Source: Apostichopus japonicus (Eukaryota; Echinodermata; Holothuroidea; Aspidochirotida; Stichopodidae). From it: a stretch of DNA of 64,000 nt. Numbering within the stretch: the stretch's first letter is position 1; every line of letters begins with the position of its first letter. The notes below the pieces were generated by a model. That model worked only from the letters and a program-made list of their open reading frames with translations, searched no databases and was not told the origin of the DNA. Below, in pieces: positions 28,791-57,284 of this stretch. The stretch is from contig NC_092563.1 of NCBI RefSeq assembly GCF_037975245.1, positions 28,235,960 to 28,299,959 on the forward strand, written 5' to 3'. The translations under genes and the position numbers were made by a program.

Positions 28791-29712
28791 TGTTTATTTG
28801 GAGGTTTCATGTAATGAAAATTTGGCACTGGGATGAAAAGAAGACCGAAGAAATGAATGGATTTTTTTTTCAATTTATTTTCACATGGTGCATGCTGTGG
28901 GGAAATGTTTAGTTCAGTGCAACCACGGAATTCTCCATGGAACAGAGCCTAATGCTGCTCGACGGGAATATAGCTATCATGTTAGGCTACAGACATGGTT
29001 ATTGTTAGGTAACAGGTGTTGTCTGCTGCTCTTAGCACGCATACACATTTACGTACTAGTTGAGTGAAATCATGCCCAATAGGGATAGTAATATATTAGT
29101 ACCACCCTGGAACACATCACATGACCCTCCATGCATGGTACGCGCATACGCGCGCTTTTACTGTGTGTTAGTTTCTCCAGATTTATTAAACTCATGGTAT
29201 GAACCATGTTGCGTCACTTGCACTGTTGCGGCTGAATTTTCCTCCACGCTTACGCAATATGCCACGCCAACCGTCGTACTTTTCCCTGGGGCAGTAATGC
29301 ACGCCGTACGCAAATTTATTGGCGTACATTTCCATATGCCAAAGATCTTTGTGTGAAAGGTCGTACTTTCCAATATGGCTGAGGGATGGCTGGTATGACA
29401 TCGAAAAAACATTGCTGAGACTCAAGGTCCAATTGATTTAAAGCAAGGGAGATTCTAACACCGTAAATACAAATTGCCATCCCTAATATACCAGAGATAA
29501 GGTAAAACTTAAAGGCTTGACCAACAATGTAAAATTAATACAGAATGATTTTGTGGTTTAACAGAACCCAATGTTAACAGAATGAGAACATAACAGAAAG
29601 TTTGAAACAAAAATAATGCTTACAAAAAACTGTGGCTCTGCATAACACAATGGCATGGGCAAATGGTGAATCACTTTAGGCTAACTTACGCATAACTATA
29701 AATACTACAAAG

Positions 29713-29935
29713 TGGCTATTTTTACGACCAGGAGTAACAATAATTTCCGGTTACGCATGGGCAGTTGCTTTAAATTTTTACGACCAGGAGTACCAATAAT
29801 TTCCGGTTAGGGTTTAGGGTTACCCCTATACTGCATGCGCAGTTGCTTTATTTACTTTACTGCACATGCAATAATTCGCCGATGTCGTAAGAATAGTTTA
29901 TAAATAATTGATACTCCTGGTCGTAAGAATAGCCA
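29713..29935. mobile_element. Short TIR element (MITE) of about 223 bp
   Basis: Both ends read TGGCTATTyTTACGACCAGG inward from the edges. An internal direct copy of the 'acgaccaggagta' stretch begins at about 29779. No coding capacity. It sits upstream of the kinase gene. Confidence 0.7.
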
Positions 29936-31029
29936 TGGCCTAAATACTATATTTACTAACTAGTAACAAGATGATTTTCTCCACATTCCTTAAATTAAAA
30001 GTGAAATATTACACCCAGCCCAATTATGACTGCAAATTATAATATAACATCAAAATTGGCTGGGAGATTTGGCTATGTCTGGCAAATAAACTTGGTAGAA
30101 TGTGAGATTGAAATTAAAGCCAGGAGAGTTGGCAGGTAGCTTAGGCTATGTTATTCTTAGGCCTTGCCAACCTACGCTGGGGTAATGTAGGATTATGTAG
30201 CAATATTACTATTAGGTTTTACTTGGCCTAACTTTGGTTATTATAAAAAATATGGTAGTTGGTACGCTAGTGCTGAAAGGTTAGCCGTCAACTAATGTTA
30301 GGCTTAGCATTAGGCCCAACTCAGAACATTGATATAGGCGCTCCCAAAGTTGGGGTCGCTTGCGACTGAATTAAGCCAGTACTTTTGCGACAAGTGTTCA
30401 AAAAATGCAGAAGAGGGAAATTCTTAGTTGTGCTACTCAAGTTATGGCACATATTTTCCCATGTATACATGAATTTTTCCAACCTTCTATCATTATTCCT
30501 TTGTGCTGCGCCAACTTCGATAAAACGTGTAAAATTGGATGAAAACGGCATTGTTGAATGAAGTCTGCACCAGGACTGGACGCAGTAGGACCAACAGACG
30601 GTAGAGGCGGTTTGAGTGCCCCGCCAAGCATTCGCTGACCTCATTTGTTCGATTTTCCCGCGTTACGGTTGTAAAAGGGCCAGACAATGCTTTAGGTACC
30701 CAACTTATCATAGATGACGTAATGTATTCAAGTACAGTAGTACAGTAATAGATGACAAAGCGGTAACGATAATTTTGTACGGAAGCCGATAGATAATATT
30801 TATGGGCGGCCATTACCGCAAAAACAAAATATAAAAATTAATTTATTAAATTACACCACAAATAATTTTAACATGAAAAAAAATAAAATTTCTCCATCAA
30901 AAATATATTAACTCCATCAAAATAAATTTACTCCGTCAAAATAAATTTACTAACTCACATCAAAAATTAATTTTCTTCATCAAAAAAAAATTTACTCTGT
31001 GTCAGAACTAATTTCACCCTGCACGTATT

Positions 31030-33233
31030 AAATCTTCACTAAGTCATAAAATAAAGGTGTCTGTTTCTGTAAATAGATGACATAGTTAACTGTTTCGATA
31101 TAAACTCATCCTAGCTGCATCCCGTCAAGAACAAACAAATGTTCCAAGATTGTCATCCTTGACATATTAGGTTTGTCACACTACATTCATACAATCAACC
31201 GTGTAGTCTTTTTTTCCCTTTTTCTTGGCAATGGAAATAATAGACGTTTGTCCACATTAGCCAACATCTCTTGTTCAGTTCCATCTATATGAATAGGTAT
31301 GATAAATTAAACAAAGATATTTGTATCTCCCTGAGTAGTATGAAGTGTTTAAATTATTTGTGTACATCATTATTAGTATTGGAGAACTTCAATATAAAGT
31401 CTCTTTTGGGACTTAATTGTTGTCTGCTTAATCTTTTATGACACTACCTAACTTACCGTTACGCTAGCAGTTCTTCTTTGTAGCACCTTTGGAGCACAAT
31501 TGTACATGGCAGAAAGAGAAATGACACCTACATTTCTCTGGAATGAGTGTATCGGGTGATCTCAGGGCCCTGGTCTAGGTTCACGAACGAAGCTAATGCA
31601 TTTTCACATTCCTTTTCCCCTCTCATAGAGAGTTTAAAGCACAAAATACATGTGTGAGAGAGTAACTGAAATTCTATGGAATTTACTTCTTTTGGTGGGT
31701 GGGGGAAGGGAGTTGGGGCATGGGAGGAGGGGTGGATTGGCAGAAAGTGAAGCCAAAAAGTTGTTGGAATTTTTTATATTTCTCATTCTCCCGGAAGAAC
31801 TCTATAAAGTACATGGCAGAAAGAGGAGTTTAATTTCTGTGGAAGGTATTGCAAGCTTTCAGATGGTAGTTTCTCGTAGCTATTTTAATATAAATACATA
31901 ATTACATTCTAGAGATCCACTTAAGTTATTGGAATGTATTTCAAAGCACAGCATCTGTGGGGGTCCAGGAGGCAAAGCATTTTATTAGGCTAATGTTGCC
32001 CAAATAAAAGAAATGTGGACATAAGTTTTCAGTATTACCGCAGCCAGCTGAGAAGGGGGAGGGTTGTGGTGGGGGGGGGCAAGCATCTTCATTGGGACTC
32101 ATGGATATCAAGTAAGTTCTTCTTCAAGTTGTCACAGTGTGTTAAAAGAAAGAAAGAAAACTCTTTTTCTTGTTCATTTTTTCATATGAATATGATCATA
32201 TTATTGACATAACATTTCAAAGAAAGCCAAGCAGTTAATAACGGGTGCAACACACTAGAATGAAACTACACAAATTTCTACATTAAAAAAACTTTTGATG
32301 ACAGTTTTCTTTTATCTACATTATATACAAATATATCTTTATAAATGTAAACATGAAACAGAAATGAAGAAAATCTAGTATAAAAAAAATAAAAAATAAA
32401 ATAAAAAAATAAAAATCCTAAATGAGTTAACTGAATCAAACTCAATTAAAATCAAAGATTTTTCTATCTCAGTCTGAGTTGAGCATAAACATCACAATTT
32501 CAGAATCTGTAGGCCTATTGGCATTTGGAACTACATCTGACTCATGAACAGCTCTGGCTTTGAGGAAATAGTTAAGTAATATTAATGATCAATAAATCAA
32601 TCCATAAATGGTATGAATTAATATTGCATACATGATCCTTATACCATTAACCAGTTGGAATGTTTTTGTCATTGTCCTTTCATGTCATGATATAGAGCAC
32701 TCGTACTGACAGTATGAACTGTATGAATATCATGGTTTTATCAGGCAGAGGTTAGGATCTGTTCACACTGCCAGTACAAGCTTTGATGCAAAGCATGATG
32801 TGGTAAGGACGTTGTCCTAGTTGGCTGATACCAAAAAGCATGCATATGCATGAGATAGCAGGTGAGCACATACAAGCACATTCAATCAAATGTGATGAAA
32901 ATACTTGAGAATATTACTAGAAACCATTTTGGGAAAACAATGAAAGATACAAAGATGTTGAGCAAAATAGTACTCGAGACGTAGATATAACTGTACATTC
33001 TTCTATCATTGCATGTGCAGAGTTGAAGACAGAAGACAATATTTGCATTTAAATATTCACAATTAACAACATGAAAGGATGAAACTCATGGAGCAACCTC
33101 AAGACATTGATTTAATTTAGATGGAGCGAGGGAAGGAGGAGAGGTGATTGGGAGAAGTCTTCATGTACATACAGTTAACTATGTCATCTATTTACAGAAA
33201 AAGACACCTTTATTTTCTGACTTAGTGAAGATT
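31030..33233. repeat. Inverted repeat with 63-bp arms about 2.1 kb apart
   Basis: Arms at 31030-31092 and 33171-33233 are reverse complements with about two or three mismatches. The right arm lies just downstream of the stop codon of the minus-strand IRF-like gene and contains, in the minus sense, an AATAAA at 33209-33214. This may be a TIR element of about 2.2 kb, although I see no coding frame in the interior. The rest of 28.2-33.3 kb is non-coding as far as I can see. Confidence 0.65.
33209..33214 (-). terminator. Candidate poly(A) signal of IRF-like gene A
   Basis: AATAAA in the minus sense, about 150 nt after the stop codon at 33365. It lies within the right arm of the long inverted repeat, so the repeat may supply the 3' end of the transcript. 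Confidence 0.45.
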
Positions 33234-33364
33234 TCCTTATTTCTGGATTAGGGTGTTACAGTGGGACAGGGAAGGGGGGGGGGGGAGGAATTCTCCTCTC
33301 TCTTTTGTTATGCTGTTGATCAAAACCACCGATCATGCTGTACTATGAAATGAACCATCTATAT

Positions 33365-36300
33365 CTATTGTTCCATTATTTCTACTTTGTTCAATTCATC
33401 AGAATCTACTGCAGAAATTTGTATGAGGCCACTATAACTATTAACAGATGCAAGATTGTTGGCTGAAGGATGGCAAAGTCCATCCCACAGTTCACGGGCC
33501 AAACTTGGGGTCAGTTTTGCCCATACCAGGGTCTTATTTAATGGTACTGTCCCTGGACACCACTTTTGAGCAAAGGTAAAGTATATCGTTGGATTCATGT
33601 GGTGTGCAAATTGACGATTCGACTCATTTGCTGCAAGGGCGGGACTTGATTCGATTACATGTAAATAGCCATGCATTAGTGTTTTTGAATACGAAACACC
33701 GTTGAAAATCATCGTTTCCTGACACCTCGGGAGTTCCAATGATGTGTCCACACCTGTTTCAACACTGGTGTAGAATATTTTGGCCTTTGATCTCCGTGTG
33801 GCATAGATGCAACCCTGGTGACATCTTATCTGCAATCTGTGAAGAGAACAACACAAAATGTCTGTAATGTCAACAAAAATGCTACATCCAAGGTAAAATA
33901 TATACATGATATATATGATAAGTAATTTGACTACGACAAAAAAAATTTCAATGTTATTACCATACTCTATCATCGTTAATCAAAAAATATTGCTAATACA
34001 TGTTTCAAATATAAACCAAAAAGCTATTTATCTCAGGATTTCTTGCCATACAAGTTGCTCAAAGCTTAAAATAACTATCTCAGTAATGTAGAGCAAGTGA
34101 GTTAACATTTGTTCAAGATTTAAACCAGGACTAGAAAAGATTTATTTTTTGTAGCAATCCCTTGTCACTGGGCATCCCCCATGCCATTCAATCACAAATA
34201 TTTTACAGTATACAGAATTTTTAACCAATATGTTTCAATATCCAGAAAGAACCGTCTTCCCCTGTGAAAATATAGACACATTTTTACCCATTTTGAGCTA
34301 AAAAATCCATTCAATGATTGTTTAGAGTTACATAACATTGATTATACACTGTGAAATATTTTTGAGAAAATGGCAAAATTTGTCCCCATCTGAGATATTC
34401 TTTTGCCCACCCCCCCTTTTGGGGTTATCATATTTAAAGAATTTCAGACTTTGATGCCTATTGATTTCCTGTGACCTTTGACCTCTACCAATTTCAATAG
34501 GGCTCTTGTACTCAACAAGATGAATATGCATACCATGTATGAAATTCAACAAAGATGTACTTATTGAGTTATCTTGTTCACAAAGTTTTCAGGCTTTGAC
34601 CTCTGTTGACCCAAATGACCGTTGAACTTCACAGAAAACAAAAGACCTTATTGTACTCGATAAGATGGATCAACACACAAAGTATGAAGTAAATCCACCA
34701 TCAACATTTTAGGTTGATGTGTTTATAAGAAAGTGTCACAAGCACCAACACACGCCATCACTATCGCAAAGATTCCTTTCGCCTCCTGCAAGGAATAACA
34801 AAAATTTACCAAGAAAACCTTTTACTTACCCGCCTTGCATATTTTCAAGAATGTTTCTAATATTTTTCTTCTCTTTAGGATTCAGTGATAGGTCATCATT
34901 TGCTTTTTCTGCTTGAGGTAGGGGTGGAAAACGGATGAAATGATAGCCCTGTGGGATGTCCCTTGGAACTTTCTCATGAAAGAGAAGAATCCCACCCGGA
35001 AGAGAGACGTCATACTCCTTCTCGATGGTATGTTTTGATGAAAGGTAACTCACCATCAGCTTCATTTTACAAGCTGGCAGAAGAAAAAAATAACTCAATT
35101 ATGTTCAACAAAGTTTTCACAACTTCCAAGAAGATTGTCAGATGTCTCTCTGCAGTATTATTGAGAAAACATAGTCTCTTGGTCTGAGGCTGCCAAGAAT
35201 AATGTCTACAACAGTAACTGGTATTGTAAGAACTGTGTAACATTGAATTCAACCCCCTTGACAAAAAAGACATATTGGAAGAAGAGCTCACCAGATGGTA
35301 AACCATTGTTTGGATCAGCTGCAGCATTAATTCTAGAAGCAGAAGAATCATCGTTTCTAGAAGGTGCCACATCATTCGTTTCTGGACGATGAATTGTTGG
35401 CGATGGTTCCATGACAGGATTCATAGAAGATGGATTATCTGCAGCTCCTGATAAAAAAAAACAAAAACAAAGATAATGAATCCTTGTTATTGTTTTCATT
35501 GCAAAATCATATCAAATTTTAACTGTCAGGATTACACAATATCTTTCGCACCTTTGCTTCAACGGCTCATGCAAACGTTCTCTTTTTTTCTGGTTCCTGT
35601 ATTAATGTTAACTGATCTCAGTCATACCTGATCTGTGAGACTATAAAAAACATTAACAAAGTTTCACCCCAAAAAGCTTGGATCTTTTCACTGTAAGAGA
35701 TTGAACTCTGTACAATCAATTCAAGGTTTTGCTACAATCTTCTTGTCTTTGCAAAAGTACAACAAGAGAAATATACCAGGGTTTTGCTACAACTAACAAC
35801 TAATTGTACTATTGTATAAACACATCAATTAGGTCACCTGGCTTAGACAATTAACTCTCATAGCATCCTGGAAAACAACTCATTTTAATGTTTCTTAAGC
35901 AGTTAAGTACTATGACTGTAATTAATATTGGAGTAACCTTCTTTACTTTCACTTGCCTAAGTGCCCAGAATCAGGTGACATAACAGGCATTTGATGAGCA
36001 GGCTGAGAATCAACGTTGAAGTCTCCTGAGGATATCCTTAGTTGCGGCAACGGAGCATTGTCACCTTCCATCCGTATTTGATCGAGGATCTGTGGAATCT
36101 CGGTATCTTCCGAACTCAGTGAAATGCTGGCTGAACTCTATACAATATAGAACAAACCATATAGAATATAAACTGTAGGAATATCGATTAATTGGGCTGT
36201 GATTCTGTTTCCCACAATTCTCTGTTTCCCTTATACATTTTATTTTCAGTTCTCTGATTTTATGAAGTCAGCTATTCATCCTTTTGCAAATGTTATGTTC

Positions 36301-38022
36301 ATCCCCTCACCAGTGCTTTTTTAGGATAAATCGTGGCAAGACAACCTTTTTTGGGACTTACATTGACATGGCAGGGCGGTATGGCAAGGGGCAATGGCAC
36401 TGACCGATGGCAATATGCGGTAGATGCCGTTGGTTTATTTTTCGAGCCCTGTTCCTCACATTTGATCTGTTTTGTTCAGACTGTCCTCTCTGCTTTATTA
36501 CAAGGACAGAGGATGCATGATTTGTTGATTATGTGTTAAGTTGAAGTTAAGTCAGTAGTTAAGATAGTTAACTTGAAGAAAAAGCTATACCTACCTGTAT
36601 TGGTATCAGTACACCCTTGGTTGCACACAGTGCAGGCATTTCTGATTAATTTCTAGTGGTTGTCCTACATTGTCATTATTATACTTTCAGTATTTATTCA
36701 TTCCTTTGTACCTGTCATAATACATAAGTCAACAGTGGGCATACCTCTCTTATATCCCCACCTATGATGACTGCTTAAAGGTATGCTGTATTGGCCCAAA
36801 ATATGGTCACCTTTGGTCAAAATTCTGAACTGTTTTTATTACAACCTTCAAGGGAATTTTCCTCACCGGGACATTCAGTCATCTTGTGTGTTCCTTAAAA
36901 ATGTCTGAGGACAACCTTTAACTTGTTGGCATGTCCTACCATACTACTACCATTGTATGTTCAATTTCTCTTCTACAGTGAATGATAGTAAATGCACTGA
37001 TGTAACATGAAAGTCAACTTACCAAGAACTTTCTCGTTATTCCTCTCGATGGATCAGTGATTATTTGAGCACTTGATGTTTCCTGATATATACACGGCTC
37101 TGTATACGTTTCTGCATCTGCAAAACAGAAAAGTTCAGTAGGTCAACTACATGGTGAAATCTAAAAGGAATCAACATTAAGGTATAACATCTTTATTATA
37201 TGTGTCTCTACTCTCACCAACGATGAACAACCATTCTCGTTACAGAGAAGGAAACAGCCTCAGATGGTCAACCAAGTATCCTTGCTACTCTGCCAGTAGA
37301 ACCATCAACCATCTGCACCCTTAACAGTGTGTACATACAATACTAATAACTTAGCTGTCTGTACACAATACTAATAACTTAACCAACTGTACACAATACC
37401 AATAACTTAACCGTCTACACACAATACCAATAACTTAACTGTCTGTACACAATACCGATAACTTAACCAACTGTACACAATACCAATAACTTAGCCATCT
37501 ATACACAATGCCAATAACTTCACCTTCTGTACACAATACCAATGACTTCACCAAATGGTTATCTCAACCTGGAAACAGGCATGGAACACATGAGGTTGTT
37601 CCAGCAGCTATTCAACAGTATCAAAGGGAGGGTAAACTACAAACTCTCTATGAGAGACAAAATGGGTATAGGCTATACACACATTAATGTATAAGAAAAT
37701 CCAGTATCCGGGCCATGTGCACTGATGATGATGTGAATGATGATGCCACTTTTAAGCACTCAATAGATTATAAACCCACACAATTGATCTATCTTGCCTT
37801 ACCTCTTAGTTAATTCTCACTTAACATCAATCACACAGCCATGCATAGTGTTTGGGGAGGCTGGGAGCGTGGGTGTCAATGTGCATTGATCCTGCCCAGG
37901 ATAAGAAAATACTAACCTTGCATGTCTTGGTCTGGTGACATTCTTCCCAATATGCTCTGATCATGTATATCCATCAAGGCTTGCTCATAGTCAAAGCTGC
38001 TTATGGTTCCTTCAGAACTCAT
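33365..38022 (-). CDS. IRF-association-domain protein without DNA-binding domain (paralogue A)
   Basis: Six coding exons join in frame to 417 residues: 38022-37917, 37117-37023, 36137-35957, 35447-35292, 35073-34830 and 33836-33365. Residues about 180-417 resemble the IRF association domain (IAD/IRF-3 fold). Visible landmarks are a strand-rich start (MKLMVSYL), GCIYATRRSKAKIFYTS, the core FTFAQKWCPGTVPLNKT followed by LVWAKLTPSLARELW, and GLIQIS near the end. In vertebrate IRFs this domain mediates dimerisation and binding to phosphorylated adaptors. Residues 1-179 are Ser/Pro/Asp-rich and probably disordered, with no Trp-cluster DNA-binding domain. An in-frame TAA at 38512-38514 in the likely 5' UTR exon, with no ATG between, supports the chosen start. 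The intron after 35957 has a GC donor. Family assignment is by eye; a divergent IAD-like fold is the main alternative. Confidence 0.82.
35956..35956 (-). other. GC-AG intron donor in IRF-like gene A
   Basis: In the minus sense the exon ends ...CACTTAG and the intron begins gcaagtg. Only this donor keeps the frame into the next exon, where the split codon G|GA encodes Gly. GCAAGT is the usual form of the rare GC-AG class. Confidence 0.75.
37326..37560. repeat. Minisatellite of about 30-35 bp units
   Basis: Copies of 'tgtacacaataccaataact' plus a short variable piece are repeated about seven times in the first coding intron of IRF-like gene A. Confidence 0.85.
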
Positions 38023-38468
38023 AGTGGCTGAATTAATTAATCCTGCAGAACGTAAAATATGAATAGTAAGAAAATAGCTGTGTAAGTTTGGCATAACATA
38101 TACCTAGTGGCGATTTTATTACACCCTTTCTTTTTCCTTCTCCACGAACACATTTGTTTCATTATAATTTTTTCCCAACTTTATGCCGTAGTTCAAAGTA
38201 AAGTATAGGACCTGTGGTGTGTTGGCCTAGTTGACTAATTTACACTAGACTGCAACATTGAAAGGTGCCTAGGCCTAGACCATAACTAATTGGAGCTTCC
38301 AATAATCACTATGCTACATACATTCACACTAGGCCTATGTTATGTAGGCCTGGTACGATGTTAGTTTCACTTTTGGAGCAACTGCATGTCTCCTTTTATC
38401 GCTGCGCTAAGCACACCTTTGGCTTAGTTAGGTGAAAAATCGAACTCTTCCATAATAGCAAACCTTAC

Positions 38469-38532
38469 CTTCCTCTTCCGCTTTGACAAGTTTAGAATGA
38501 TGACCTAACGTTTAACACTGACTAACTGTTAG
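38469..38532 (-). other. Probable 5' UTR exon of IRF-like gene A (5' end not determined)
   Basis: In the minus sense this stretch ends in gaggaag followed by a gtaagg donor. Spliced to the exon at 38042 it would place an in-frame TAA (38512-38514) upstream of the ATG. The upper coordinate is only the part examined, not a transcription start. Confidence 0.5.
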
Positions 38533-39029
38533 TTGCAAACTGTAATATCAAAATCTCGAGATAGAAGTTCAGGTACGTCCGTTCGCTGCTTCGTAGTAAG
38601 ATAAAATGAACTTTCTTTACCTTGAAAGCTACAAGTATAATTCCGTAGGAGGATATAAATACTCACAGAAATTCCAATCACGTAAACACTGTACAGTACA
38701 CGTATTTTTGCGTAATATTTTGGCGTCAGGGTATTCCCTATAAGGTATTTCAGGCGTACGGAGTCAAGTAAAGAACATGTATAACAGAGTTAAGGACAGA
38801 GGGAAGAATTGTGGAACAACATTACACTAGCAGTAGGAGTCTGATAAAATGTTTTGATGTATAAAGCGCTTCCTATACCACAGTTCCTCTCTGAATAAAC
38901 TTTTCGTGGCGAGCAATGGACACTTATATTTAGTTAAGTTTAGTTTAGTAGAAAAAAGGATCAGGAGGGACACTTAAGTCCCCATCAAGGACCCTACAAA
39001 GAGAGGGAAAAAACTGAAGACACAAACAC

Positions 39030-39737
39030 TCAGATCCGATTACAATGCTTAAAGTGCTTGTCCAAAGCATTCTTAAACCCATTGACACTACTTGCAAGTA
39101 CAACTTTCTCAGGCAAACTATTCCACTCATTCACAACCCTATTAGAAAAAAAGTTATGCCGAATATTAATCCTACTATGCGACTTTTGAAGTTTAAGACA
39201 ATGACCTCTAGTACAACTACTGTTTGCAAACATGAAAAAGTCGGTAAAGGATAAATTGTCGAAACCATACACAATCTTGAAAATCTGGATCAAGTCCCCA
39301 CGTAACCTCCTAAGCTCCAGTGTGGTGAGATTGAACAGTTGTAACCGCCTATAATAAGGAACCCTCTTTAAGGAACTAATCATCCTAGTAGCCCTCCTCT
39401 GGACCTTTTCAAGTACTTCCTTATCCTTAGCAAAATAAGGGTTCCAAGCCTGCACAGCATACTCCAGATGAGGCCTAACCAACTGCTTATAAAGCCTAAC
39501 TACGATGTCCTCTTTCAGAAAACTCAAGTTCCTCTTGATCATACCTAAAACCCTATTACCTCTTTTAGCAGCTTCAAGACAATGTTTAGAAGGTTGCAGA
39601 GACGATTCAAAGTAGATACCTAGGTCTCTTTCAACAGCGACCTCCTGGAACTCCACACCATTTAGATTGTATGCAAACTTTTGGTTACTACTACCAATTT
39701 GCATTACCTTACATTTATCAATATTACATAACAACAT
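39030..39737 (-). pseudogene. 5'-truncated non-LTR retrotransposon, reverse transcriptase C-terminal part
   Basis: A 235-codon open frame shows the C-terminal part of a jockey/CR1-like reverse transcriptase. Seen are a FAYNLNGVEF-like strand, ERDLGIYFESSLQPSKH, the segment LVRPHLEYAVQAWNP, a KVQRRATRMI stretch, and the terminal VNEWNSLPEKV...VNGFKNALDKH. The catalytic YxDD core and endonuclease are missing, so it is a dead 5'-truncated copy; a G-run begins just beyond its 5' edge. Downstream (toward 38930) there is an ttagtttagt-like tail. It occupies the intergenic space between the two head-to-head IRF-like genes. Confidence 0.9.
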
Positions 39738-40734
39738 TTTTCATTTTTATGACTGATTTGCCATGGGGGGGGGGGGGGGGTGGGAGGGATATTGACAAAT
39801 CATCCGATACCATCCGAATACTCGTAACTGGTAACTAAACAGTGACCGATCACATTTTTCAACTTCACACCTCACTTACGCCGAGCCTAACTAGGCACAA
39901 TATTAAAAATGTATTGAGTTAGTGGCAAGTGTCATAAAACAGTGCTCGATGAAAATAAGCAAGGTTATCTTAAAAGTTGAACCAATTTTCGCAAAAGGCA
40001 TTCACACTCTTCAAAATCATATGATATGGTGTTGAAAAATTCAATCCGTCGATATATCTTGTTATTATTTCCCAGCCATTGAGTCCGAGATCCCTATTTT
40101 ACCATGATTTCAAAGTTGGCACTTATAACATATATTCTTATATATAATAAACATGGCTGTGTCTTTCATCATGAACAAACTTTGTCAACACCTTATCGAC
40201 CCCGCATAATCTTTACGGTAGATCCGCCAGTATAGGTTTTTAAAATGCTTGACTTGAGCGGCCCTTTCATAACACGAAAACGAGAATTATGTTCATTTTG
40301 GTTGCTAGTTTGGTTGCTTGGTCATGAAATTTCTGCTGCTTATGAGGGCTAGAATGGTTGTTTTTTTTTTGGGGGGGGGGGGGAGTTTCGGATGTCATTC
40401 GATAGCGTATAAGGAGGGCATCTTATTTTCCCTTTACCTATTTGTCAGTACAGTTGTACACAGTTTGCGATTGCCTTTGATGTTGGCATCGATGACCTAT
40501 AAAGGCTACCATACCCTCCAAGAACATCACGAACCACAGGAAATATTGACTTTGGCCATGCAGTGCCTTTGACTTTGATTAAACTTTAACAATGAAAATT
40601 ACATTGTTTAAACTGGGGTTTCCCATTGGAATTCCTATAAACTGCTTCCTGTAACATGCATAGACAAAATTATAACAAGGAATTCCGACTGTTGCTCAGT
40701 ACATAATTTCAGTTTATTATATGTCTTCTTGCAG

Positions 40735-40985
40735 GCAGTGTATTATTAATATTATTATTATTATTATTATCAGGTTATCTGTTTTTTTTTTGGAGGGGGG
40801 GTTCTTTTTTAGGTGTTAAGGTTTTCTATTTTCTTTGATGGGAGTACTCTATTCGATTAAGCCCACAAGGGTGGGTTTCTAAGTTTACTTCCTTTCACAT
40901 ACTTTACTTATTTGCAGTTATATTGTCTTGTTCACCTTGTATTACTATGTGTTGAAACAAATAAATTCATCAAATCATTATTATT
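40735..40985 (+). repeat. ATT-rich tails, possible retrotransposon 3' end
   Basis: Two (ATT)n runs (40738-40770 and 40976-40988) bracket a segment ending 'gaaacaaataaattcatcaa', which resembles the 3' end of non-LTR elements. No coding frame is visible. Confidence 0.35.
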
Positions 40986-41764
40986 ATTGCGGGGTGGAGA
41001 TGGGGGTTACAAGAACCTTCTCCTCATTTGCGTTTTATTTTTTGGGAGGGGGAGGGGGAGGTGGAGAACTTTTAAAGATAGTTTAAGATAGTTGTTACTG
41101 AGAACGGTTGGAAGCAGGGATGTGTGGGTTGAAGTAAGGTGGTCAGTTTAATTTTAGAGTGGATCATAGGATAGGTACACGTCACTGTCATCGTCAAAGC
41201 AGTTTGATAGCTGGATCATAACAATGATCCTACACCACACAAAGCAACTAGAGCGGCAATTGTTTTAAAATTACAACTGCAGAATATTATTGGATAGGAA
41301 TCTGGGGATTCTCGCACAAAATAAAAGTTAAAACTATAGACGCCAAAAGGTACATCGAAAGTTATATTTAGACTATAATGATTGAACAAGGGCGGCGGAA
41401 GCACTTTTAATCTGGGGGGCACCGACATCAAAGGGCACTTTGCAGAAATTCGATTGGACTGATGCAGCCTTATATTTAGTACCCATTATAACTCTTATTG
41501 TATTATCTTATTTGCGTATACACATCAGGCTCGATCAACGCCCCCCCCCCCCTTCAAGGAAAATATGCATACTAGCACTGCAATATCCAATGTGCAAATT
41601 GGGAAAAAAAGGAACAAGTTTTCTTTTGAGACAAAATGAGGTGAAATCATGTTAGTTGCTAATGTAGGAATCTTCGGAATTAGAGTTTATTTCTTGTTAA
41701 TATCTTTACAAATTTTTCCATTCGAAATAGCTTTGAGTTTGACCCACAGAAATTCATTAAAAGT

Positions 41765-42080
41765 CAGGGGCGTAGCCAGGATTTGCAAAGTTGTATACAC
41801 GACTATCAGAGCCGTATATAGAGATACGGCTCTGACGACTATGTGAGCGGAGCGCCACCATCAGTTGGCGCGGAGCGTACAAGAAAATTTTTGGTTTTAC
41901 AAACCCCTCAGATGGCCGGAAACGGCCCTTCCCGAGTGTTCATTCTAATTCCCTGGCCTCTTGCTAACTTGAGACACCTCAATTTTTATGTAGAAAAATG
42001 GCACATTTTTAACCTGAGGAAAAGTGGGGGGGGCACGACCCCCTGTGCCCCCCCCCCCCGGTTCCGCCGCCCTTGACCGC
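41765..42080. repeat. Dispersed repeat with hairpin and G/C-rich end
   Basis: It contains 'ggcgtagccagg', a hairpin (agagccgtatatagagatac followed by ggctct; a related copy is near 1580), and the gcgccaccatcagttggcg block shared with 28685. It closes in runs of G and C around 42028-42060. It is probably one or more mobile-element fragments. Confidence 0.55.
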
Positions 42081-43727
42081 AGCTGCTTCATATGCAAGTT
42101 CCTTGATTTGTGTCACTGTTATTCAATCTTGGCGATATTGGTTTTTTCTGTGTTTACTATGTCTTGCAGGGTAATCACCATGACGTATGTCAACGTTTGG
42201 GGCGTGAAGCATTATGGATTGTGCAACGTCTAAACGAAATCCACAACACCACACAAATCTTGCAAATTTACGTTTGTGATTGCGTTCATGTTTCGCAATT
42301 ACAAAACCCCCATAATTTATGTACAATTTAAAATTCGATTTTACTAAAATGAAAGTGATGTCTATATTTTGTTTATGGAATACACTTGCACTTAAAAATA
42401 TATTTATACTGTATACATGTCTTTTAATTAACTGGAAAATACTCATCTTCTTTAAAAGGGAAATTGTTTTCCACAAGAAATCTGATAAACGTGAACGAGA
42501 CTGATTGATGACCTAGGGGAATCCCCATAATTTCTGAATTTATGACGGCGCAGAATTGGGATGTTCTTTTGACATTTTGATATTTGCAAATTTTTATGTT
42601 TCAAACGCGATCTTTTGGAAGGTATCGTTCACATTTGATTTTCTTTTCTAATTGTCGGCTTCTAAGGATCAAACTTCGCTAAGTAAAAATTTAATCTGAA
42701 AATGAAATGTAATCTTCTAGCCAGTATGCTACACTAGGCTTACTTTGTACAACGTAACCTTACTACTACTAGTAGTAGTATAGTAATAGCCTATACATAG
42801 TTATATTGTAGTGTAAGCTAGGCCTAAGACAGTAAGCATAACTTTACTACTGCTACTGTTTAGTGAGACCATCCGACTCAATACAATTTGATAACTATCT
42901 CATAGGCTTCGTATCAGCTCTAATAGTGTAAGTACTTATTTAAGTGTTGGAAATCACTTATTCTTTCCTTGTATTCAGTGAAGTATCAAACAGTAGTATT
43001 GTTTGCAATGCTAGGGCTAAACAACCGTTGATTAAGGAAGAGAAATGTCCTTGCTTAAGATGTGTTATAGAGTATCACTTCCAAATTGGAAAATTAGTTG
43101 ATGCTGATGTGAACTGATTTTGAAGCCCATGTATTCAAGCGTGGACAATTCAAACCATGAACAACTAAAGTTTGTATCAGCTCTATCAATCAATGGTAGA
43201 CCTATAATATCAATGAATGTTGCCTTCATAGTTACTACTACACAACTAGGAGGAAGTCAAGAACTTTGTGAAAACATCTTTTTAATTCAAACCTCAAATT
43301 CCTCTTTCTACATGGATGATAGGCTGGATTGAATGCCTATTACTTGAAGTGTCAAAGTGTTTTGGATTTTTCTGCATTTTGGAGTGTGTTTTAAGCCTTC
43401 ACATTGACCATTAGATGCCAAAAATGTTCAATGATTTAAAGAATAATCAAATCTGTAATTTGATGTGACAATCATCGAGATTGATGGAAACACACTTTTC
43501 TGTTTTTATATTTATAAAGGACTCTAGGAGTCAAGGTAAGTTGGCATCTCCGACATTCAATTAATTGATATAGTGTGATAGACTTCAGGACAGAGTGATG
43601 ATAGCAGAACTTTTGGGTTTAAATTATTTTAACATTTTGCTAACACTTTATGTTTTATTTATTAATACCTAACATTTTCTGTTGTACAGGTAACTGAATT
43701 GAGTGCGGTCATCCACTAAGCTACATA

Positions 43728-46700
43728 ATGGACTCAAACATGGAAACGAATGAAACATCATATGGCACCAGCCATAATTTCGAAAATTGGCCACCAAACC
43801 CTCAAGGTAATTACCAAGCAATGGCATTATAATATTTGCAAAACATAGAACCTCAAGAAAACTTTGCATGTAATCAGCGTACTTGTTGTTGAAGAGGATG
43901 GGAGGGGATATTATGGACAAGATATTGGAAAGGCAAGTTTTTTCCTTGTAGCTTATGCATAATACATACGGTATGTATAGTAAAGGCGTCATAATTGACG
44001 CACCTTCGTAATTGACGCACCTTCGTAATTGACGCACCTTCAAATATTACTGGCAACGATACAGCAGGCAACTTTTTGTAGCGAAGCAGAGTTTGAATCC
44101 ATTTCAGCTATGTGCTAATCAATATGTGTTTTAAGCTTTTAACACCCCTCCCCTCAATTTTGCACATATTTGGGATTTGGAAATCTTACTCCCTAAAACT
44201 AACCAATATTACCACAGCATGATACCACTACTCTCTGGGTCCTGACCTGTCTGAGCTTAGGGGCTCAGAGCATAGCAAAGAGCATTCAGAGTCAATTGAT
44301 GTATACTTACACAAAAGTTACAGTTAACTTATCGAGGAATGTGTCCATTTAAGGGTATGAAAGAACTTGACACGGCAGACATTTTGTGGTCAAGTTCTGC
44401 TCAATTGTACGTTGCATATACACAGAACAATAAATATTTTGAGATCATTACATTTCTGGGGAACTATACATATGAAAAACACATACAGTTGAGTGATTTC
44501 GATTTTTCAAATTCTTAAGTGCGTCAATTATGAGCCCACCATGCTACAATATAAGTTGTTTTTTGCAAACATCACCTAACAATTAGCTCAATATTGAAAA
44601 GGAAGTTCCTGTTTGATTGTTATTTAATTTAAATTCAGTGAAGTTCTCTTAAGATGCTTAGTAATATAGCATGCTAATGTTAGTTATAGTCAATACAGCA
44701 CTTCTTTCAAAGTCAACTTTGGAAGCTGGTCCTACTCACAACAACATTTTAAATTATCGGGCCATTGCAGGCTCTGTAATGTCTTACCTTTGACATGAAC
44801 CCTTTCGAATTGTCCTTTAAATAGATTTGTAAAAGGAAGAGGAGGATTTTCAGTCTCCTGTATATTCCTACTGTCTGACCAGTGAGTGATGGATATAGAA
44901 TATGCCAGTTCTCATTGAAGTAAGAGACACTTCCAGGGACTTGTGACAGATATCTTTGTAGCATCTGTAAGAGAAGCTGGATTTGCAAGTTACGTCCATG
45001 GCTAGTGGGACGGATATTTCTTTGCAGCATCTGTTAGAGGATATAAAATATGTCCATGGGGGGGGGGTGGGACAGGTGCGTGGGATGGATATGTCCTTGC
45101 AGGTTCTTTAAAGAGAAGTTAAATATGCATGTAGCTGTTGTTGTGCTTTGAATTACAAATGGCATTTTTTTTCTTTTACATATACTTCTATTTAGATGTT
45201 CCACAAGCCAGAATGGACAGTTTTGATAAAGTTCTTGAAGAGTATCGCACAGGTGGTAAGTAAAGAAAATGAACCCTTCTCAGTGAGAGAGGGGAACAGG
45301 AGGAGGACTTTGTGTTCCCAAGGGTCTAAACTTGAAATCCTTGTAAACACTATATCTCCAGATAGGAAACTTTATTTGCTATCATGTTTTGCATGTGGCT
45401 TCTCTATAATGAGTACAAGAACCTTGTTGTTTTTGCTGGAGGTCAAAGGTCACTTGGGGTCATCAAAGATCACCTTCTGTAGAGTCTTACAAACACAAAC
45501 CTATTAAACATGATATCCCAAGATATGGTACATCACATAGCTCATATTTGGCATATGTGTCTGTCTTATAGTGAGTACAAGAACCTTATTATTTTGGGTG
45601 GAGATCAAAGGTCGGCATAGGTACAGGCAGAAGGAACTTCAGCAAGGGTTAGCTTGCAAACTACTTTTGTACCAGAGGTTTCCCGCTGTTTTTTTGTTAC
45701 GTTTGCTTTCCCTACATTTATAGTAGTTCTTAGCAGGTTCGTCACTTATGCTAAAATGTTTGTACGAAATATAAGAACTGTTTTTCTTGTCGTAAAAGTT
45801 TTATCGGCTATTAATTAGCCACCACAGGTTATTAATAGTAAGAATGTCAGCCCCAATTCTTACATGCAATACTAGGCTAGGCACCTTTTGTGTTAAAATG
45901 TAGTAGGATAACCTTTGGGATAAATTCTGACGTTTTCAATTTTCTCAACTTACCAATACAGTTTATGTTCAAGTTTATTGAGTGCTTAAGTTACAAATCA
46001 TATTCAGCCAGCTGCATTTGAGATTTGAAGCAACCATGGTTGCTAACATCAAGCATGTGACATGTCACATATGTAAATAAATTAACATATATCTATAGCT
46101 ATATTGTTAACCATTTACACTGAATGCATAACAACCTTATAAAACATTCTTCGTTCTGTGCTTCAAATTCTGAACCTTTGTTCCAGTGACGATGCAGTTA
46201 GACAGATTCCAATTTCATGAATTTAATAAGCTTTCTTGTGAAGAAACAATACCCTCTATACATGTTCTGATTCATAGGTTTGTGATGGAATCTTGGTTTC
46301 ATAGTTGAACAAGTGGTACTACGTGAACATGTAAAATAATCAATGTTTGGGCTGTCAAGTTTGTCGCCCTCTTTTATGTCTGTAGTAACCTGTATATCCT
46401 AAAATACCTTTAAGTGAATTTTAAATTATTTAGATGTTGGTTAGTGCTTAATATCATATATAGTGAAACAGCTTAAAGGCATTTCTCACCAATTTGTATG
46501 ACAGTAGAAGAGAAGGCAAAACTTAGACTGAATTGGCCTTGCCCACGTTTTTTCTTTCTTTCTAAATCCATGTGAGAAAAGCCTAAACACAGAGAGTCAT
46601 TTTTATTAATATTAATAAAATGGTTACTCACATCTTGTATCATATTTTCCTTGAAGACTTTAATGGTCGGGCAGACAGTGGTATTATGATTGCAGAGATA

Positions 46701-49248
46701 ATGGCAGCTCTTACCACACCTGGACGGCACATAGCAACAGAAAGTCAGCAAGATGAAGTGGTGAGTTAAGCTTTCAAAGATTCATTATATTTTTGTTAAT
46801 GTGTACTGTATGTCCATGAACTAGTCACAACCTACTCACTTAATTGTTCACTTACTGACTTTGAATGAAGTGAACAATTGAACATATAGCAGAAAATTGT
46901 TGAATTGACGACACATGATAAGTTTTCAATTAAACATTTTAACAAAATTGTTCAATTGCTCAGTCGGAATGAAGTAAACAATTGAACATTTTGCAGAAAA
47001 ATGTTGACTTGACACGATATGATAAGCCCTATGTACACTTTAGGACAATGAGTTTATTTTATTTTAGCCCTCCTCTTCTGCTGTACATTCCAACTCCAGG
47101 AAAATAAATGCAGAATGGTACAGCCCTTTGGTAATATATCAAGTATTAGATCGTACTCACTACCTGTTGTCAACCCTCCATGGAGAAGTATTACGATGAT
47201 GTATATATTTCATTTTAATTCATGAAAACCGTGTTACTTACATGCGTCGAATGAGAAACAAATATTAGGACCATCACCAAACTCAAGAAGGTGTTGCAGA
47301 GACCACAAGGTCAAGTTAAAAATGTTACAATACTGATGTAAAAAGATGCCTTGAAATGCGGTCGTACAAAGAAAGATTCTCTTCATGCTCTGATGCCCCA
47401 GACAGTGCAATTTTGCGATGAAAGCAAGTATTTTCTTAAGAAAATCTCTCCCAAAGATGTACTGTGTATAACAAAGGTACCTCCGATTGATCTTACCCCT
47501 TATGTTCAATGTAGAGAGGTTAACAAAAATCTAGCAAGTCCTGTACCATTGAATCAAAAAGATATAGACCGGAACCATAAGTTCTCTAAAAATGTCAATT
47601 TCCAAGGATTTGAAATCATTTGTGTATGATATTTAGCAGGACATTAACGATGCCTTCTATCTCTTTGTATTTCTGATAGTGAAACACCACACACACACAT
47701 TTTGGTGGACTGTTGATCCATATTTTGCACACGATGACATTATTGATACATACCTTGACCGCAAAAGTTCAAATTCGTGGTAATCCCGAGAGGATCTTGT
47801 GTCAATTTTTTTCTCTGAACAGTGAAAATGAAGAAATGATAGAGGTTTCAAAGTTTAAAGTGGTTGGGTTGAAACTGTTAAATGTTGAAACTGTTATGTT
47901 GCACGGTTATGTATTCAACTTGCTTGTATCGTTTTGAGATGTTTGGTTCAACTGAACTGTAATTCAGTTATTACGTTGTTTTCGTGATTCATTTTTTCGA
48001 TATTATTTTTGTATTTCATTTACTTGTCATATGTGTTTTGATTGATGTTTCTACAATATGGAAAATAGTCAAGACTTATAAAAGCTCATGACTTGAGAAT
48101 TGGTATATTTTCAAGAAGAAATTCTAGATCATCCAGGGAGAAATGTTGGTTGGATGTGCAGTTAAAGTTATTTACAGATATGATATATTCTGTACTTGTT
48201 GCCTATATGGTAGTCTTCACGGTAATCCAAAGCACACCAACTTCCTCAGTGTTGTTGTGAAAATATTATGGATGAAACAATTCATGCCGCGATACCTTCC
48301 ACAGCAAGGGTAGCGAATGTTTGCTTACAATTGTGTTTACTTTGTTATATTTCCGTTACACATGCTTCTATTTTGTCTTACTGTTTTTTTTATCATGTCA
48401 GATGGATTCTATGGAGTCAGTCCCATCTAGTGTAATAAATTCCGCTTTGAAAGGCTACGATAAGACATCGTTGCCAGAGGTTCATGACAACGAGATTACA
48501 CAAGCGCTCATGCCGGGTCAGAGGCCCCCTTACCTACTGAATCAGGCAATACTGGTATCACCACCATCGTATGATGAATCTTATGCACAGGCCACTTACC
48601 ACGACCTACAAACTAGACCGTTCCTTGATCCAAACCAAGAAATACATGGTATGTGCTGGAGAATAAAATATGCCTAATTAATACATTTTTTATCTTTCCA
48701 TATTTTGGGAATGTAAGGTATCTTCTGAAAAGTTACCAGGCTGTAAAACAATAATTCTGTGTCAAAGGTTCCTTTTGAGATTATAGCTGTAGAATTTTGA
48801 TTGGGGGGGGGGTGTGGGAAGGGGAGGAGGGAAGGGGAATCATTTGCCATCACCATATGGTGTGGCACCATATGGTATGTACCATTGATGATCAACAACT
48901 GATAGCTACCTTGTTACTGCTACAACAAACATGAATGCTTCCTTCATTGGCTCATCGTTAGCAATATACAAAACATACCAAACAATGATTCATCAGTTTG
49001 AAGGATGGTGGTATGTTATGAGCAAAAGAAAAAAAAATTGTGTAAGACACGTAGAACTGTTCAATTCATATTCTTTGTTTTGTTTCCTATGGTATTGCAG
49101 AGTCATTCTACCTCGCCTACCCACCCTGTCCGTTCAACCCCGTCCCGTCCCGTCCCCTCCCACCCCATCCCCTCCATGTTCATTGCTACTGCGTTATTAA
49201 TTATTAATTTTGGGAATTGTTTCACTACAGATAAGAGTTAATTGTCTG

Positions 49249-49289
<41 letters not shown>

Positions 49290-49675
49290 TATAGATATAT
49301 ATATAATTGAAATCGTAATGAGTTGGAAAATCCAGAACAATTAAAAAACTTCCAGCCTCTATGCGGATACCCTAACCACTAGGCTATGGACAATGATTGT
49401 ATGTCCAGAGGTTCGAAATCGGTAAGGAAGGTCGTTATTCCACTGTAGGCGTTTGTCACCTGTATGGAACCATACTAGTTCTGTTTTAGTCACATATTTG
49501 CCTTACCCTAGAGATCAAACATTATGCTAACTAACTCGAAATCATTTGTGATTCCTTAAGCCGGATCTCGAAAGAGATACTTTGAACAGATTCTGTATAT
49601 ATATTCCGGTGGAGGCTGGAAGTTTTTTCACTGTTCTGGATTTTCCAACTCACTACAATTTCAATTATATATATA

Positions 49676-49749
<74 letters not shown>

Positions 49750-52514
49750 CAGTGAAAAAACTTCCAGCCTCCATCGCAATTCGAACCCGGACCTCCCACT
49801 TTATATGCGGACACCCTAACCACTAGGCTATGGTCGCTGGTTGTATGTCCAGAGGTTAGAAACCAGTGTTACCATTCTGGTTTCCGTTATTCAATACTAT
49901 TGTTCCGTTTGTCATTTTTTTATCGTTTTTTAATACAGGCGTTCAGCCAGGCTTTTACAGTAATGCGCTACCAGTTCCCGAACCCGAACATTCAGAACCT
50001 CAAAGATTCCAACCAGCTACAACCGCTAATCAACCAGACAGCCAGAATCTGCATCCCGACGATGACGTAATGTCAGTTAAATCCACAGACTCATCGACAG
50101 ATACCTCGTACAAGTTATCACCAGGTGAGAATCCTTGTGACTTGTATTATTTACCCTCATGGTCGTTTCTATGGAGGACATTTGTAAATTTAACAGATTT
50201 TATACCTTTAGTTGCTCGGACTGTTGCAGGTGAGAAGTTATGACAGAGAAATGCTTGAAGGACAGACCTCAAATATTTTATGTTTATGTGTTTATAATGG
50301 AATGCATAATTTGACAGTAAGGAATAAATCACAATCAAATTATGCAAGGTCTCACGATGCCATTGAATATCTATACTCTGTCTGTCAACAATGTCATTTT
50401 TGGTTTTGATGCAGTCAGTGATGATAATGTGTGTGTGTATGTATGGGTGCGTGCGTGCGTTTGTTTTGCTATCTGACCAAGGACTTGAACAAAAGAATTC
50501 CAGGTCCTCGGTTGTGATTTCTAAAGAATCACCACGTCCTCGGAAGAATTCTATTGTATGGGGTATTGTTAAGGTTAGGGTACGTGGATTTGAACAATGG
50601 AAGTACAATGGGGTCCTCGGTCTGAATGTAATACAAACATGTGTGTGCGTGTGTGTGTGTGTGAGATGTCCAGCTTGTCAACACGATATTTCAAGATAGA
50701 AATCATCTTTACTCTTTATACTTGGTATGTAGATGTGTCATATTGAGAGGAAGAACCCTGTTGTTTTTGTTGAGGTCCAAGGAAACATTGTAAACAGGAT
50801 ATCTCAAGGCAGGAGGCATGGATACCTCTCATACTGATCATGTGGATGTGTTATCTTAGTACTTGATTATAGTATATATAGTAAAAGAACAAATATTAAA
50901 AAACTTGTAAACATGATAGCTCAACTTAGGAAAGCATGGATATATTTTGAATATGTGGCATGTGGATGCATTATATTGAATCGAAGAAGTCAGTTGTGTT
51001 TGGTGGAAGTCAAATGTCATCTGAGTTACCAGCAGTCAAGCTCTAGAAACCCTTTAAACATGATATCTCAAAGTAGGAATCCTGGATACTTCTCATACTT
51101 TGGTGTGTGGATGCATCACATTGAGTACAAGACCCCTATTGTTTCTGGTGGAGGTATGTATTGCCACGTACAGTAGACTGACCTGTGTTTATCATGGCAT
51201 AGTGTAATTGTTCATCAAACTAGTGTTTCAGGACATTTACGTTATAAGAGCTGTTTCTGCATGGTGACCAAGCAGAAGGCTAGGGTAATGAAGTCATCGA
51301 AACCTCAATGCATTTTTTGCATTCTGGTTTTAAAGTGTTATACATTTTGAAAATTTCAGAGACTAATCTGGAGATCACTGTTAGCTATTCGACGCTGCCA
51401 GTCTGTGGAACTGTAAAAGTGGAGCGTGCTGAGGGCTGCATCATGTTCTACAATAAGACCAGCAAAGAACTGTTGGATCGATGTCAAGCTGTATCGTTCC
51501 CATCTCTGGAAAATACAGAGGTCAAAAAGAAATTTGAAAAAGTATCTCCGAGGGCCATGGAACTCACAGAAAGAGCACTAAATGCACTCCAGGGAGGGTG
51601 AGTAAATGAATGGCATCTTATGTCTTGAACCTCTAGAAATTTAGCATGAATTTATCTTGTCCCAGGGAAATTATAAATTCCAGATAGGTTGCTATGGTAA
51701 ATACTTGGTGTAGTATTATCTGTGATATTCCAGATAGGTTGCTATGGTTTATACTTGGTATAGTTTTATCTGTGAAATTCCAGATAGGTTGCTATGGTTC
51801 ATACTTGGTGTTGTATTATCAATTAATTATCCTGGGTTGAAATCCTGGCCAGCCAGCCATAGCAAGCCAGAATATTCAAGGGTTTTGTAATTTAAAAAGT
51901 TGCTATAAACTTAAATCTAAGTGAAATTCAGAGGGCAAAATGTCATGACAAAACAATATGTAATTTTGCACTTTTGAGGATTATATCATTAAATGACTCA
52001 GCTGGCACTCCAGATATTGGCTTTATTGACGCTACAGTTTCTTAGACTCTTTTAAGCTGCCTGAGTAATACTTTCCACATGTAAAGTGTTGTATTTATTT
52101 TAATCTTTCAGACTTCAGCTATATTGGAAACCTCAGAAGGGTGTTTTTGCTATCCGGAGGTCGAGGGGTAAGATTTATTGGACTAGCACACAGCTAGCGT
52201 CGCCAGAGCCACAAGAATTAGCCAGGAATGTTGAAACCCAAGTATTTGACTGGGATATATTCCGTTCGAGTCTATCAAAAACTTATGCACTGAAGGCCAC
52301 AAAGCAGGACTTTCAAGAGCCAAAGTTGCCATCAATAATTTTCACTTTTGCTCAAAAATGGTGCAAGGACACTGCCCCAGTGACGTCGTGCCTGGTTTGG
52401 GCAAAAGTCATTCCAAAGAAGGCGGATGAGATGGTAGTTGGATTATTTCCAAAAGCAGAGCCTGCTGCCCATAGTAAACACAACAGCGGTATGTTGAGAG
52501 TGTCCCTGGAATGA
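43728..52514 (+). CDS. IRF-association-domain protein without DNA-binding domain (paralogue B)
   Basis: Eight coding exons join in frame to 459 residues: 43728-43806, 45196-45255, 46657-46760, 47068-47130, 48402-48648, 49939-50124, 51360-51597 and 52112-52514, all GT-AG. Residues 247-459 form an IRF association domain like paralogue A. Seen are NLEITVSY, GVFAIRRSRGKIYWTS, the VFDWDIF segment, FTFAQKWCKDTAPVTS leading into LVWAKVIPKKADEM, and a final MLRVSLE. The first 246 residues are low-complexity with PPYLL and PPSY motifs and no Trp-cluster DNA-binding domain. The first coding exon (3' splice site at 43689) has an in-frame TGA at 43695-43697, 10 codons before the ATG, so the start is well supported. 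Its last four intron phases (0,1,1,2) equal those of paralogue A, evidence of duplication. Upstream non-coding exons were not identified. Confidence 0.82.
43984..44540. mobile_element. TIR element with 18-bp direct repeats in IRF-like gene B intron 1
   Basis: The left edge holds three tandem copies of an 18-bp unit, 'ataattgacgcaccttcg'. The right edge, near 44513-44535, carries the inverted form 'gtgcgtcaattatgagccc'. The arms match over about 17 bp. No coding capacity is seen. Confidence 0.5.
45390..45625 (+). repeat. Dispersed repeat with AGGTCA words
   Basis: Phrases 'gtgagtacaagaacct' and 'ttttgctggaggtcaaaggt' recur in tandem at about 45410 and 45570 and again in variants at 50740-51150. 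The 45438 copy contains aggtcaaaggtca (two half-sites spaced by one). It lies in an intron of IRF-like gene B. Confidence 0.7.
46855..47030 (+). repeat. Imperfect duplication of about 60 bp
   Basis: 'gaatgaagtgaacaattgaa' at about 46863 and its continuation recur at about 46969 with about 80-85% identity over roughly 60 bp, in an intron of IRF-like gene B. Confidence 0.6.
49245..49305. repeat. (AT)n microsatellite
   Basis: A run of about 55 bp of AT dinucleotides at the edge of the inverted SINE-like segment. Confidence 0.95.
49310..49660 (-). mobile_element. SINE-like segment with inverted flanks
   Basis: The left flank (aaaatccagaacaatt near 49330, then cttccagcctctatgcgg) reappears inverted at about 49607-49665 (ggaggctggaagtttttt, then gttctggattttccaactc). 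The tRNA-like 'ccctaaccactaggctatgg' string lies at 49370-49389. This is the minus-sense head of the SINE seen in fuller form at 49750-49850. Confidence 0.55.
49675..49749. repeat. (AT)n microsatellite
   Basis: About 70 bp of nearly pure AT dinucleotides between the two SINE-like segments, in an intron of IRF-like gene B. Confidence 0.95.
49750..49870 (-). mobile_element. tRNA-derived SINE head
   Basis: In the minus sense an A-box-like tagcctagtgg (49820-49830) is followed by a B-box ggttcgaat (49779-49787). A truncated second copy lies at 49350-49420. It ends 70 bp before the 49939 exon of IRF-like gene B. Confidence 0.65.
50641..51180 (+). repeat. Dispersed repeat starting with (GT)n
   Basis: A (GT)n run leads into 'cagcttgtcaacacgatatt', parallel to the (GT)n and 'cgatatctcaa' arrangement at 15160-15245. 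Several degraded copies of the 'gtaaacatgatatctcaa' / 'attgagtacaagacccct' unit follow. It lies in an intron of IRF-like gene B. Confidence 0.7.
51669..51815 (+). repeat. Minisatellite, about 54-bp unit, three copies
   Basis: Three copies of 'ttccagataggttgctatgg' plus 'acttggt(g/a)tagtattatc' occur in the intron that splits the IAD of IRF-like gene B. Confidence 0.85.
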
Positions 52515-52759
52515 AACTTCAGTGACAAGATGGCATAGGGTTATATGTGTGAAAGGTTGTCACGCTCTTTGATATGGAGACAACTCAAGGCTCACCTTAC
52601 ACTAGCACGTATGCCTCGGGACCAGGCAAGGAACAGTCTGTACCCAGTATTGGAGATTAATACACCATATAGCCATACTATAGCACACATCAGTGTACTG
52701 CCACAGTAAATGAATAGATAATGCTGAAATGTTGTATTTGAAAATTGGCAGATCTGTAA

Positions 52760-52765
52760 AATAAA
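52760..52765 (+). terminator. Candidate poly(A) signal of IRF-like gene B
   Basis: AATAAA 246 nt after the stop codon, in the transcript sense. Assigned by position only. Confidence 0.4.
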
Positions 52766-52826
52766 CCTTATATAAATCGATAGGAAGAAAGACTTTATGC
52801 AATTTGATTGTCCATTTAGTTGAATA

Positions 52827-52908
52827 GGACTTAACAATAGGACTTAACAATAGTACTTAACAATAGGACTTAACAATAGGACTTAACAATAGGACTTAAC
52901 AATAGGAC
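52827..52908 (+). repeat. 13-bp minisatellite
   Basis: About six copies of 'aataggacttaac' follow the IRF-like gene B terminal exon by about 310 bp. Confidence 0.92.
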
Positions 52909-52919
52909 TAAATTGCGTG

Positions 52920-57280: not shown

Positions 57281-57284
57281 AATA

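Follow-up and report, generated by a model that had tools for sequence, protein, structure and literature searches.

The 64,000-nucleotide (nt) stretch of the holothuroid Apostichopus japonicus genome analyzed here (contig NC_092563.1, positions 28,235,960 to 28,299,959 of the forward strand; hereafter the window) contains two genes, A and B, that each encode a C-terminal association domain (IAD) of the interferon regulatory factor (IRF) family and in which no Trp-cluster DNA-binding domain (DBD) was detected. We consider, with moderate confidence, that A and B are dedicated, paralogous IRF-family genes that kept the IAD while the DNA-binding half was replaced or lost, and that their products may act as binding partners of IRFs and adaptors, as decoys or as scaffolds.

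Gene models and association domains

Splice-site reconstruction gave two genes that stand head to head, with start codons about 5.7 kb apart: gene A, with 6 coding exons and 1254 nt including the stop codon, at 38022-33365 of the minus strand, and gene B, with 8 coding exons and 1380 nt, at 43728-52514 of the plus strand. The two complete spliced frames of 417 and 459 amino acids (aa) reported in an earlier reading of the sequence alone (the sequence-only reading) were both rebuilt at identical lengths with splice signals; without the in-frame 63-nt exon at 47068-47130, protein B would be 438 aa long. All 12 introns, 5 of them in A and 7 in B, end in an AG acceptor and 11 of them begin with a GT donor, the remaining one being intron 3 of A, with a GC donor (TAG/gcaagt, at 35957 on the minus strand) placed where the phase demands. 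Coding intron phases are 1,0,1,1,2 in A and 1,1,0,0,1,1,2 in B. Shuffled coding sequences did not stay open in any of 2000 trials for either gene, and GC content is 42.5% (A) and 45.5% (B) in coding sequence vs. 35.7% and 35.6% in the introns. Beyond the stop codon, poly(A)-type signals (AATAAA/ATTAAA kind) occur at distances of 151 and 249 nt in A and of 246 nt in B. The features of the two genes are as follows.

38469..38514, minus strand: putative 5' untranslated stretch of gene A, assumed; GT donor at its end; contains the in-frame stop 38514-38512
37917..38022, minus strand: gene A coding exon 1; ATG at 38022; the exon probably starts at 38042, after an acceptor
37023..37117, minus strand: gene A exon 2
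35957..36137, minus strand: gene A exon 3; GC donor
35292..35447, minus strand: gene A exon 4; last part of the Ser/Asp/Pro-rich N-terminal half
34830..35073, minus strand: gene A exon 5; first part of the IAD
33365..33836, minus strand: gene A exon 6; remainder of the IAD and stop codon
43690..43806, plus strand: gene B exon 1; in-frame TGA at 43695-43697, ATG at 43728; 5' end guessed from an AG acceptor
45196..45255, plus strand: gene B exon 2
46657..46760, plus strand: gene B exon 3
47068..47130, plus strand: gene B exon 4; may be optional (63 nt, phase 0-0)
48402..48648, plus strand: gene B exon 5
49939..50124, plus strand: gene B exon 6
51360..51597, plus strand: gene B exon 7; first part of the IAD
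52112..52514, plus strand: gene B exon 8; remainder of the IAD and stop codon

The Pfam profile IRF-3/IAD (PF10401, curated cut-off 27 bits) matched the C-terminal half of both proteins, with 46.9 bits in A (E 3.4e-12) and 78.2 bits in B (E 8.2e-22). An independent hidden Markov model (HMM), which we built from the IADs of human IRF3, IRF4 and IRF5 and ran on the 2170 stop-to-stop open reading frames (ORFs) of at least 20 aa in the whole window, gave its top four ranks to the two IAD exons of each gene. Taken singly, only the two 3' exons were significant with this model (E 4e-9 and 0.0012), the 5' IAD exons of A (E 0.44) and B (E 0.39) being non-significant; a frame-wise Pfam scan recovered the last IAD exon of B and missed its other IAD exon. 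Profile matches in the PDB were to IRF5 (E 5e-6) and IRF4 (E 6.3e-6), and a PDB search with the IAD of B alone returned IRF4 (E 0.001). The earlier assignment of the C-terminal domains to the IRF IAD family is thus borne out by Pfam, by our own model and by the PDB profiles.

Comparison of folds, which the sequence-only reading had suggested, gave a low-confidence agreement with this assignment for B and no such match for A. A model of the last exon of B, of low confidence (predicted local distance difference test score 47), had the IADs of IRF4, IRF9 and IRF5 as its best Foldseek matches, followed by the SMAD MH2 domain, and the last exon of A had no IRF or SMAD among the best 50 of 254 matches. 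MH2 has a related fold, and both proteins also matched it weakly in Pfam, below the cut-off of 25 (A, 18.4 bits; B, 23.1 bits). A PDB search with A alone returned concanavalin A only (E 1), which we took as chance, and a third IAD candidate at 13805-13653 (tblastn E 0.79) was regarded in the same way. A search of viral contigs with the IAD of B gave one pattern match and no confirmed relative.

The search for a DNA-binding domain

Neither protein A nor protein B matched PF00605, the Pfam profile of the IRF Trp-cluster DBD, so that the Pfam comparison proposed in the sequence-only reading found the association domain in both proteins and the DBD in neither. Pfam scans in all three frames, which reported matches to E <=1 or E <=0.5 depending on the stretch, detected no PF00605 on minus 38000-64000 (about 26 kb upstream of A), on plus 13950-52600 (including about 20 kb upstream of B, 23900-43720), on minus 20000-29990 or on plus 1-9990. 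The stretches minus 1-19999, minus 29991-37999, plus 9991-13949 and plus 52601-64000 were covered only by tblastn and by our own DBD HMM, built from three human DBDs. The best E value of this model over all 2170 ORFs of the window was 1.9; tblastn of the window with the human IRF1, IRF3 and IRF4 DBDs gave best E values of 0.86, 2.9 and 4.0, respectively, and the 40 matches listed from a further tblastn run with these three DBDs were all to IRF1. As a measure of sensitivity, Pfam recognized five of five exon-sized pieces of human DBDs (29-57 aa), the shortest with 24.9 bits (E 2.6e-5), under the curated cut-off of 27. A highly diverged DBD might nonetheless slip past Pfam, our own model and tblastn alike. 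Within these searches, the description of the N-terminal halves as lacking a Trp-cluster DBD holds for both genes.

The sequence-only reading had further argued that in-frame stops upstream of both start codons make a missed DBD exon unlikely, and this is well founded for B and weaker for A. In B, an in-frame TGA (43695-43697) precedes the ATG by 30 nt within one stretch, and would fail as a barrier only through use of an alternative acceptor between the stop and the ATG. In A, the relevance of the stop at 38514-38512 depends on splicing of the assumed 5' exon, which ends at 38469, to 38042, and the nearest in-frame stop in the unspliced genome (38106-38104) lies upstream of the acceptor before 38042. 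Exon 1 of A is open as far as this acceptor and could accept a phase-1 upstream coding exon, which is therefore opposed only by the failure to find a DBD exon and not by stops. These features weaken the case for loss of the DBD in A, for which a divergent or distant DBD exon is possible.

Probable paralogy and docking residues

A and B share 29% identity over 264 residues (BLASTP) and 31% identity over a 240-column alignment of the IAD. Both have a phase 2 intron at the same IAD column (QGG/LQ) and a phase 1 intron immediately 5' of the IAD. Given roughly 30% identity in the IAD and matching intron positions and phases, we read A and B as probable old paralogs. Their N-terminal halves (178 aa with no Trp in A, 246 aa with two Trp in B) are rich in Ser, Pro and Asp and show no likeness to each other above chance, 141 of 500 shuffles scoring equally high. 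The terminal coding intron phases 1-1-2 of both genes match, by phase alone, those of sea urchin IRF-like-2, acorn worm IRF-like-2 and zebrafish IRF-9 (PMC2885996, Table 1, 3 of 108 rows by eye count). The common phases make descent of A and B from a gene of this kind an attractive possibility; however, the same authors describe nearly no intron-phase likeness among invertebrate IRF-like genes (PMC2885996).

To relate the two domains to known docking residues, we aligned A and B with IRF3, IRF4 and IRF5 only. In IRF3, adaptors dock through their phosphorylated pLxIS motif on arginine 285 (R285), and R211 is the residue that contacts pS386 when the protein homodimerizes (PMC7672473); IRF7 is reported to have a lysine at the equivalent of R211. 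The R285 equivalent is arginine in A and B and also in IRF4 and IRF5, and on this alignment is thus a family trait. The R211 equivalent is serine in both proteins, so that the homodimer arginine is not kept, the local alignment being uncertain in A owing to a 2-residue insertion near this position. The equivalents of IRF3 288 and 290, both histidine in IRF3, are lysine/arginine and lysine, respectively, in A/B, and that of 313 is arginine; at 213, 360 and 361, A and B have histidine and leucine, lysine and serine, and threonine and cysteine, respectively. The signal-response domain motif GASSL (or GVSSL) of IRF3 and IRF7 (PMC7066157) is absent from both proteins. The C-terminal tail is short, with 15 residues after LIQIS in A and 2 after MLRVS in B.

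Overall, A and B are like the IRF4 group (IRF4, IRF5, IRF8, IRF9, IRF3 and the ambulacrarian IRF-like-2) in having the PF10401 IAD and, where IRF3, IRF4 and IRF5 were compared, the R285-type arginine, and they share their terminal phases with the IRF-like-2 genes of that group; they differ from it in lacking a detected Trp-cluster DBD and an R211-type arginine and in their short tail.

Several short motifs were considered and set aside. A pLxIS motif in A (99-103) and a PPxY motif in B (156-159) can be explained by chance, since 15.5% and 9.1% of 20000 shuffles, respectively, contain one. The LIQIS of A and MLRVS of B resemble, by eye, the LQIS of IRF5; MAFFT did not align them with IRF3 or IRF5, and their status as pLxIS-like segments is an idea only.

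Possible roles, alternatives and genomic context

The IAD family is established, and DBD-less forms are already known as splice forms and in viruses. IRF-3a, a splice form of human IRF3 in which part of the DBD is missing, has an IAD, does not bind classical IRF sites, heterodimerizes with IRF3 and inhibits it (PMC3639176); it is an isoform of a full-length gene, whereas A and B are separate whole genes with N-terminal halves of their own. Among the gammaherpesvirus viral IRFs, which are likewise IRF relatives, some dominant-negative forms without a DBD oppose host IRFs by dimerizing with them (PMC6255967), but these are viral genes and not intron-rich animal genes such as A and B. For IRF8, the IAD suffices for binding to STING, a DBD-less form rescues signaling, and the DBD and C-terminal tail bind the IAD and silence it (PMC9381507); unlike IRF8, with its inhibitory DBD and tail, A and B have no detected DBD and a short tail.

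With IRF-3a, the viral IRFs and DBD-less IRF8 as precedents, the role of decoy, scaffold or partner is plausible. In the mechanism that we consider most likely, the IADs of A and B would bind full-length IRFs or phosphorylated signaling adaptors through the arginine equivalent to IRF3 R285. A protein that cannot bind DNA would then be expected to alter the amount of IRF that reaches the nucleus, as a decoy or heterodimer partner or as a cytoplasmic scaffold. Since A and B appear to lack both the DBD and the long C-terminal tail that lock the IAD of IRF8 at rest, their IAD may, by analogy, stay permanently open. By the same reasoning a negative or modulating partner would be the most likely role and a cytoplasmic scaffold the next; the short motifs that might have separated these roles are at chance level. 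The gene structures, the IAD homology, the lack of a detectable DBD and the kept and lost residues are observed; the binding partners, the direction of the effect and an immune role are what we infer from these comparisons.

Other explanations account for part of the same observations. A and/or B, and A most readily, could be ordinary IRF4-type genes whose DBD exons were missed because they lie outside the window, are highly divergent or are used only in another 5' isoform; besides the open exon 1 of A, a phase-1 second intron is found in many vertebrate IRFs (table of PMC2885996), and the tail phases of A and B agree with those of sea urchin and acorn worm IRF-like-2, which are full-length genes. 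We nevertheless judge this unlikely, as no DBD was found in the 26 kb upstream of A, in the 20 kb upstream of B or among the window ORFs although single exon-sized pieces of human DBDs were detectable, as B has a stop directly 5' of its ATG, and as the same failure would be required in both genes. Less likely still, the two genes could be decaying IRF copies that are drifting after loss of the DBD. Their divergence from vertebrate IADs, the GC donor of A and the weak scores of single exons would fit such pseudogenes, but the coding sequences are open over 6 and 8 exons with splice signals intact, coding GC content exceeds that of the introns, and two divergent paralogs are both intact with intron columns in common.

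FHA domains serve as phospho-peptide readers, and the IAD fold of A and B could likewise, as in the SMAD MH2 domain, read phospho-peptides in a signaling complex unrelated to IRF transcription, making the two proteins adaptor-like. The basic residues that align with IRF3 R285, 288, 290 and 313, the weak MH2 matches and the IRF8 precedent speak for this, but the top sequence matches are IRF IADs, MH2 stays below its cut-off, and the pLxIS of A and the PPxY of B are at chance level, and we regard the explanation as improbable. We consider it possible, though less likely than not, that A and B represent a separate animal subfamily that never binds DNA, made up of IAD-only proteins whose permanently unlocked phospho-reading domain acts at the level of the adaptor and joins or separates kinase, adaptor and full-length IRF. 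If true, IRF output would be set by a dedicated non-transcriptional partner rather than by splice forms or viral mimics.

Returning to the favored explanation, dedicated IRF-family genes that kept the IAD, no animal genes with an IAD-only build were reported among the matches listed in open-licence full-text literature. This agrees with the earlier statement that no standard family of this architecture is known; however, two censuses that selected genes by their DBD would miss such genes. We take InterPro entry IPR001346 to be the IRF DNA-binding domain. This entry was required in an Aplysia census (PMC9334734), and the search of a 2010 deuterostome census was trained on DBDs (PMC2885996); thus, IAD-only genes would go unnoticed there and are not shown to be absent. 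A mussel study describes an N-terminal DBD in all mollusc IRFs (PMC3308963). If expressed as predicted, A and B would be genomic equivalents of the DBD-less inhibitors met in the cited papers only as splice, viral or engineered forms, and would permit a direct test of whether the IAD has an ancient function apart from transcription.

Between A and B, at 39030-39740 (minus), lies a long open remnant that by eye resembles the end of a non-long-terminal-repeat reverse transcriptase and has no Pfam match to E 1. Within an intron of B, the stretch 49250-49870 holds extended AT dinucleotide repeats together with a tRNA-like segment; the latter (49766-49837, minus) scored 29.8 bits against the Rfam tRNA model, was not called by ARAGORN and is likely a tRNA-derived repeat. 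Elsewhere in the window, a weak piece of a ubiquitin-conjugating enzyme lies at about 60778-60909 (minus; PF00179, E 0.00038, below cut-off). Pieces of a Snf7/CHMP ESCRT-III gene occupy three frames at about 2950-4760 (plus; PF03357, E 1.8e-12, 1.9e-8 and a weak 0.19), and pieces of a deoxynucleoside kinase gene are found at about 24775-27212 (minus; PF01712, E 1e-21 and 2.7e-14).
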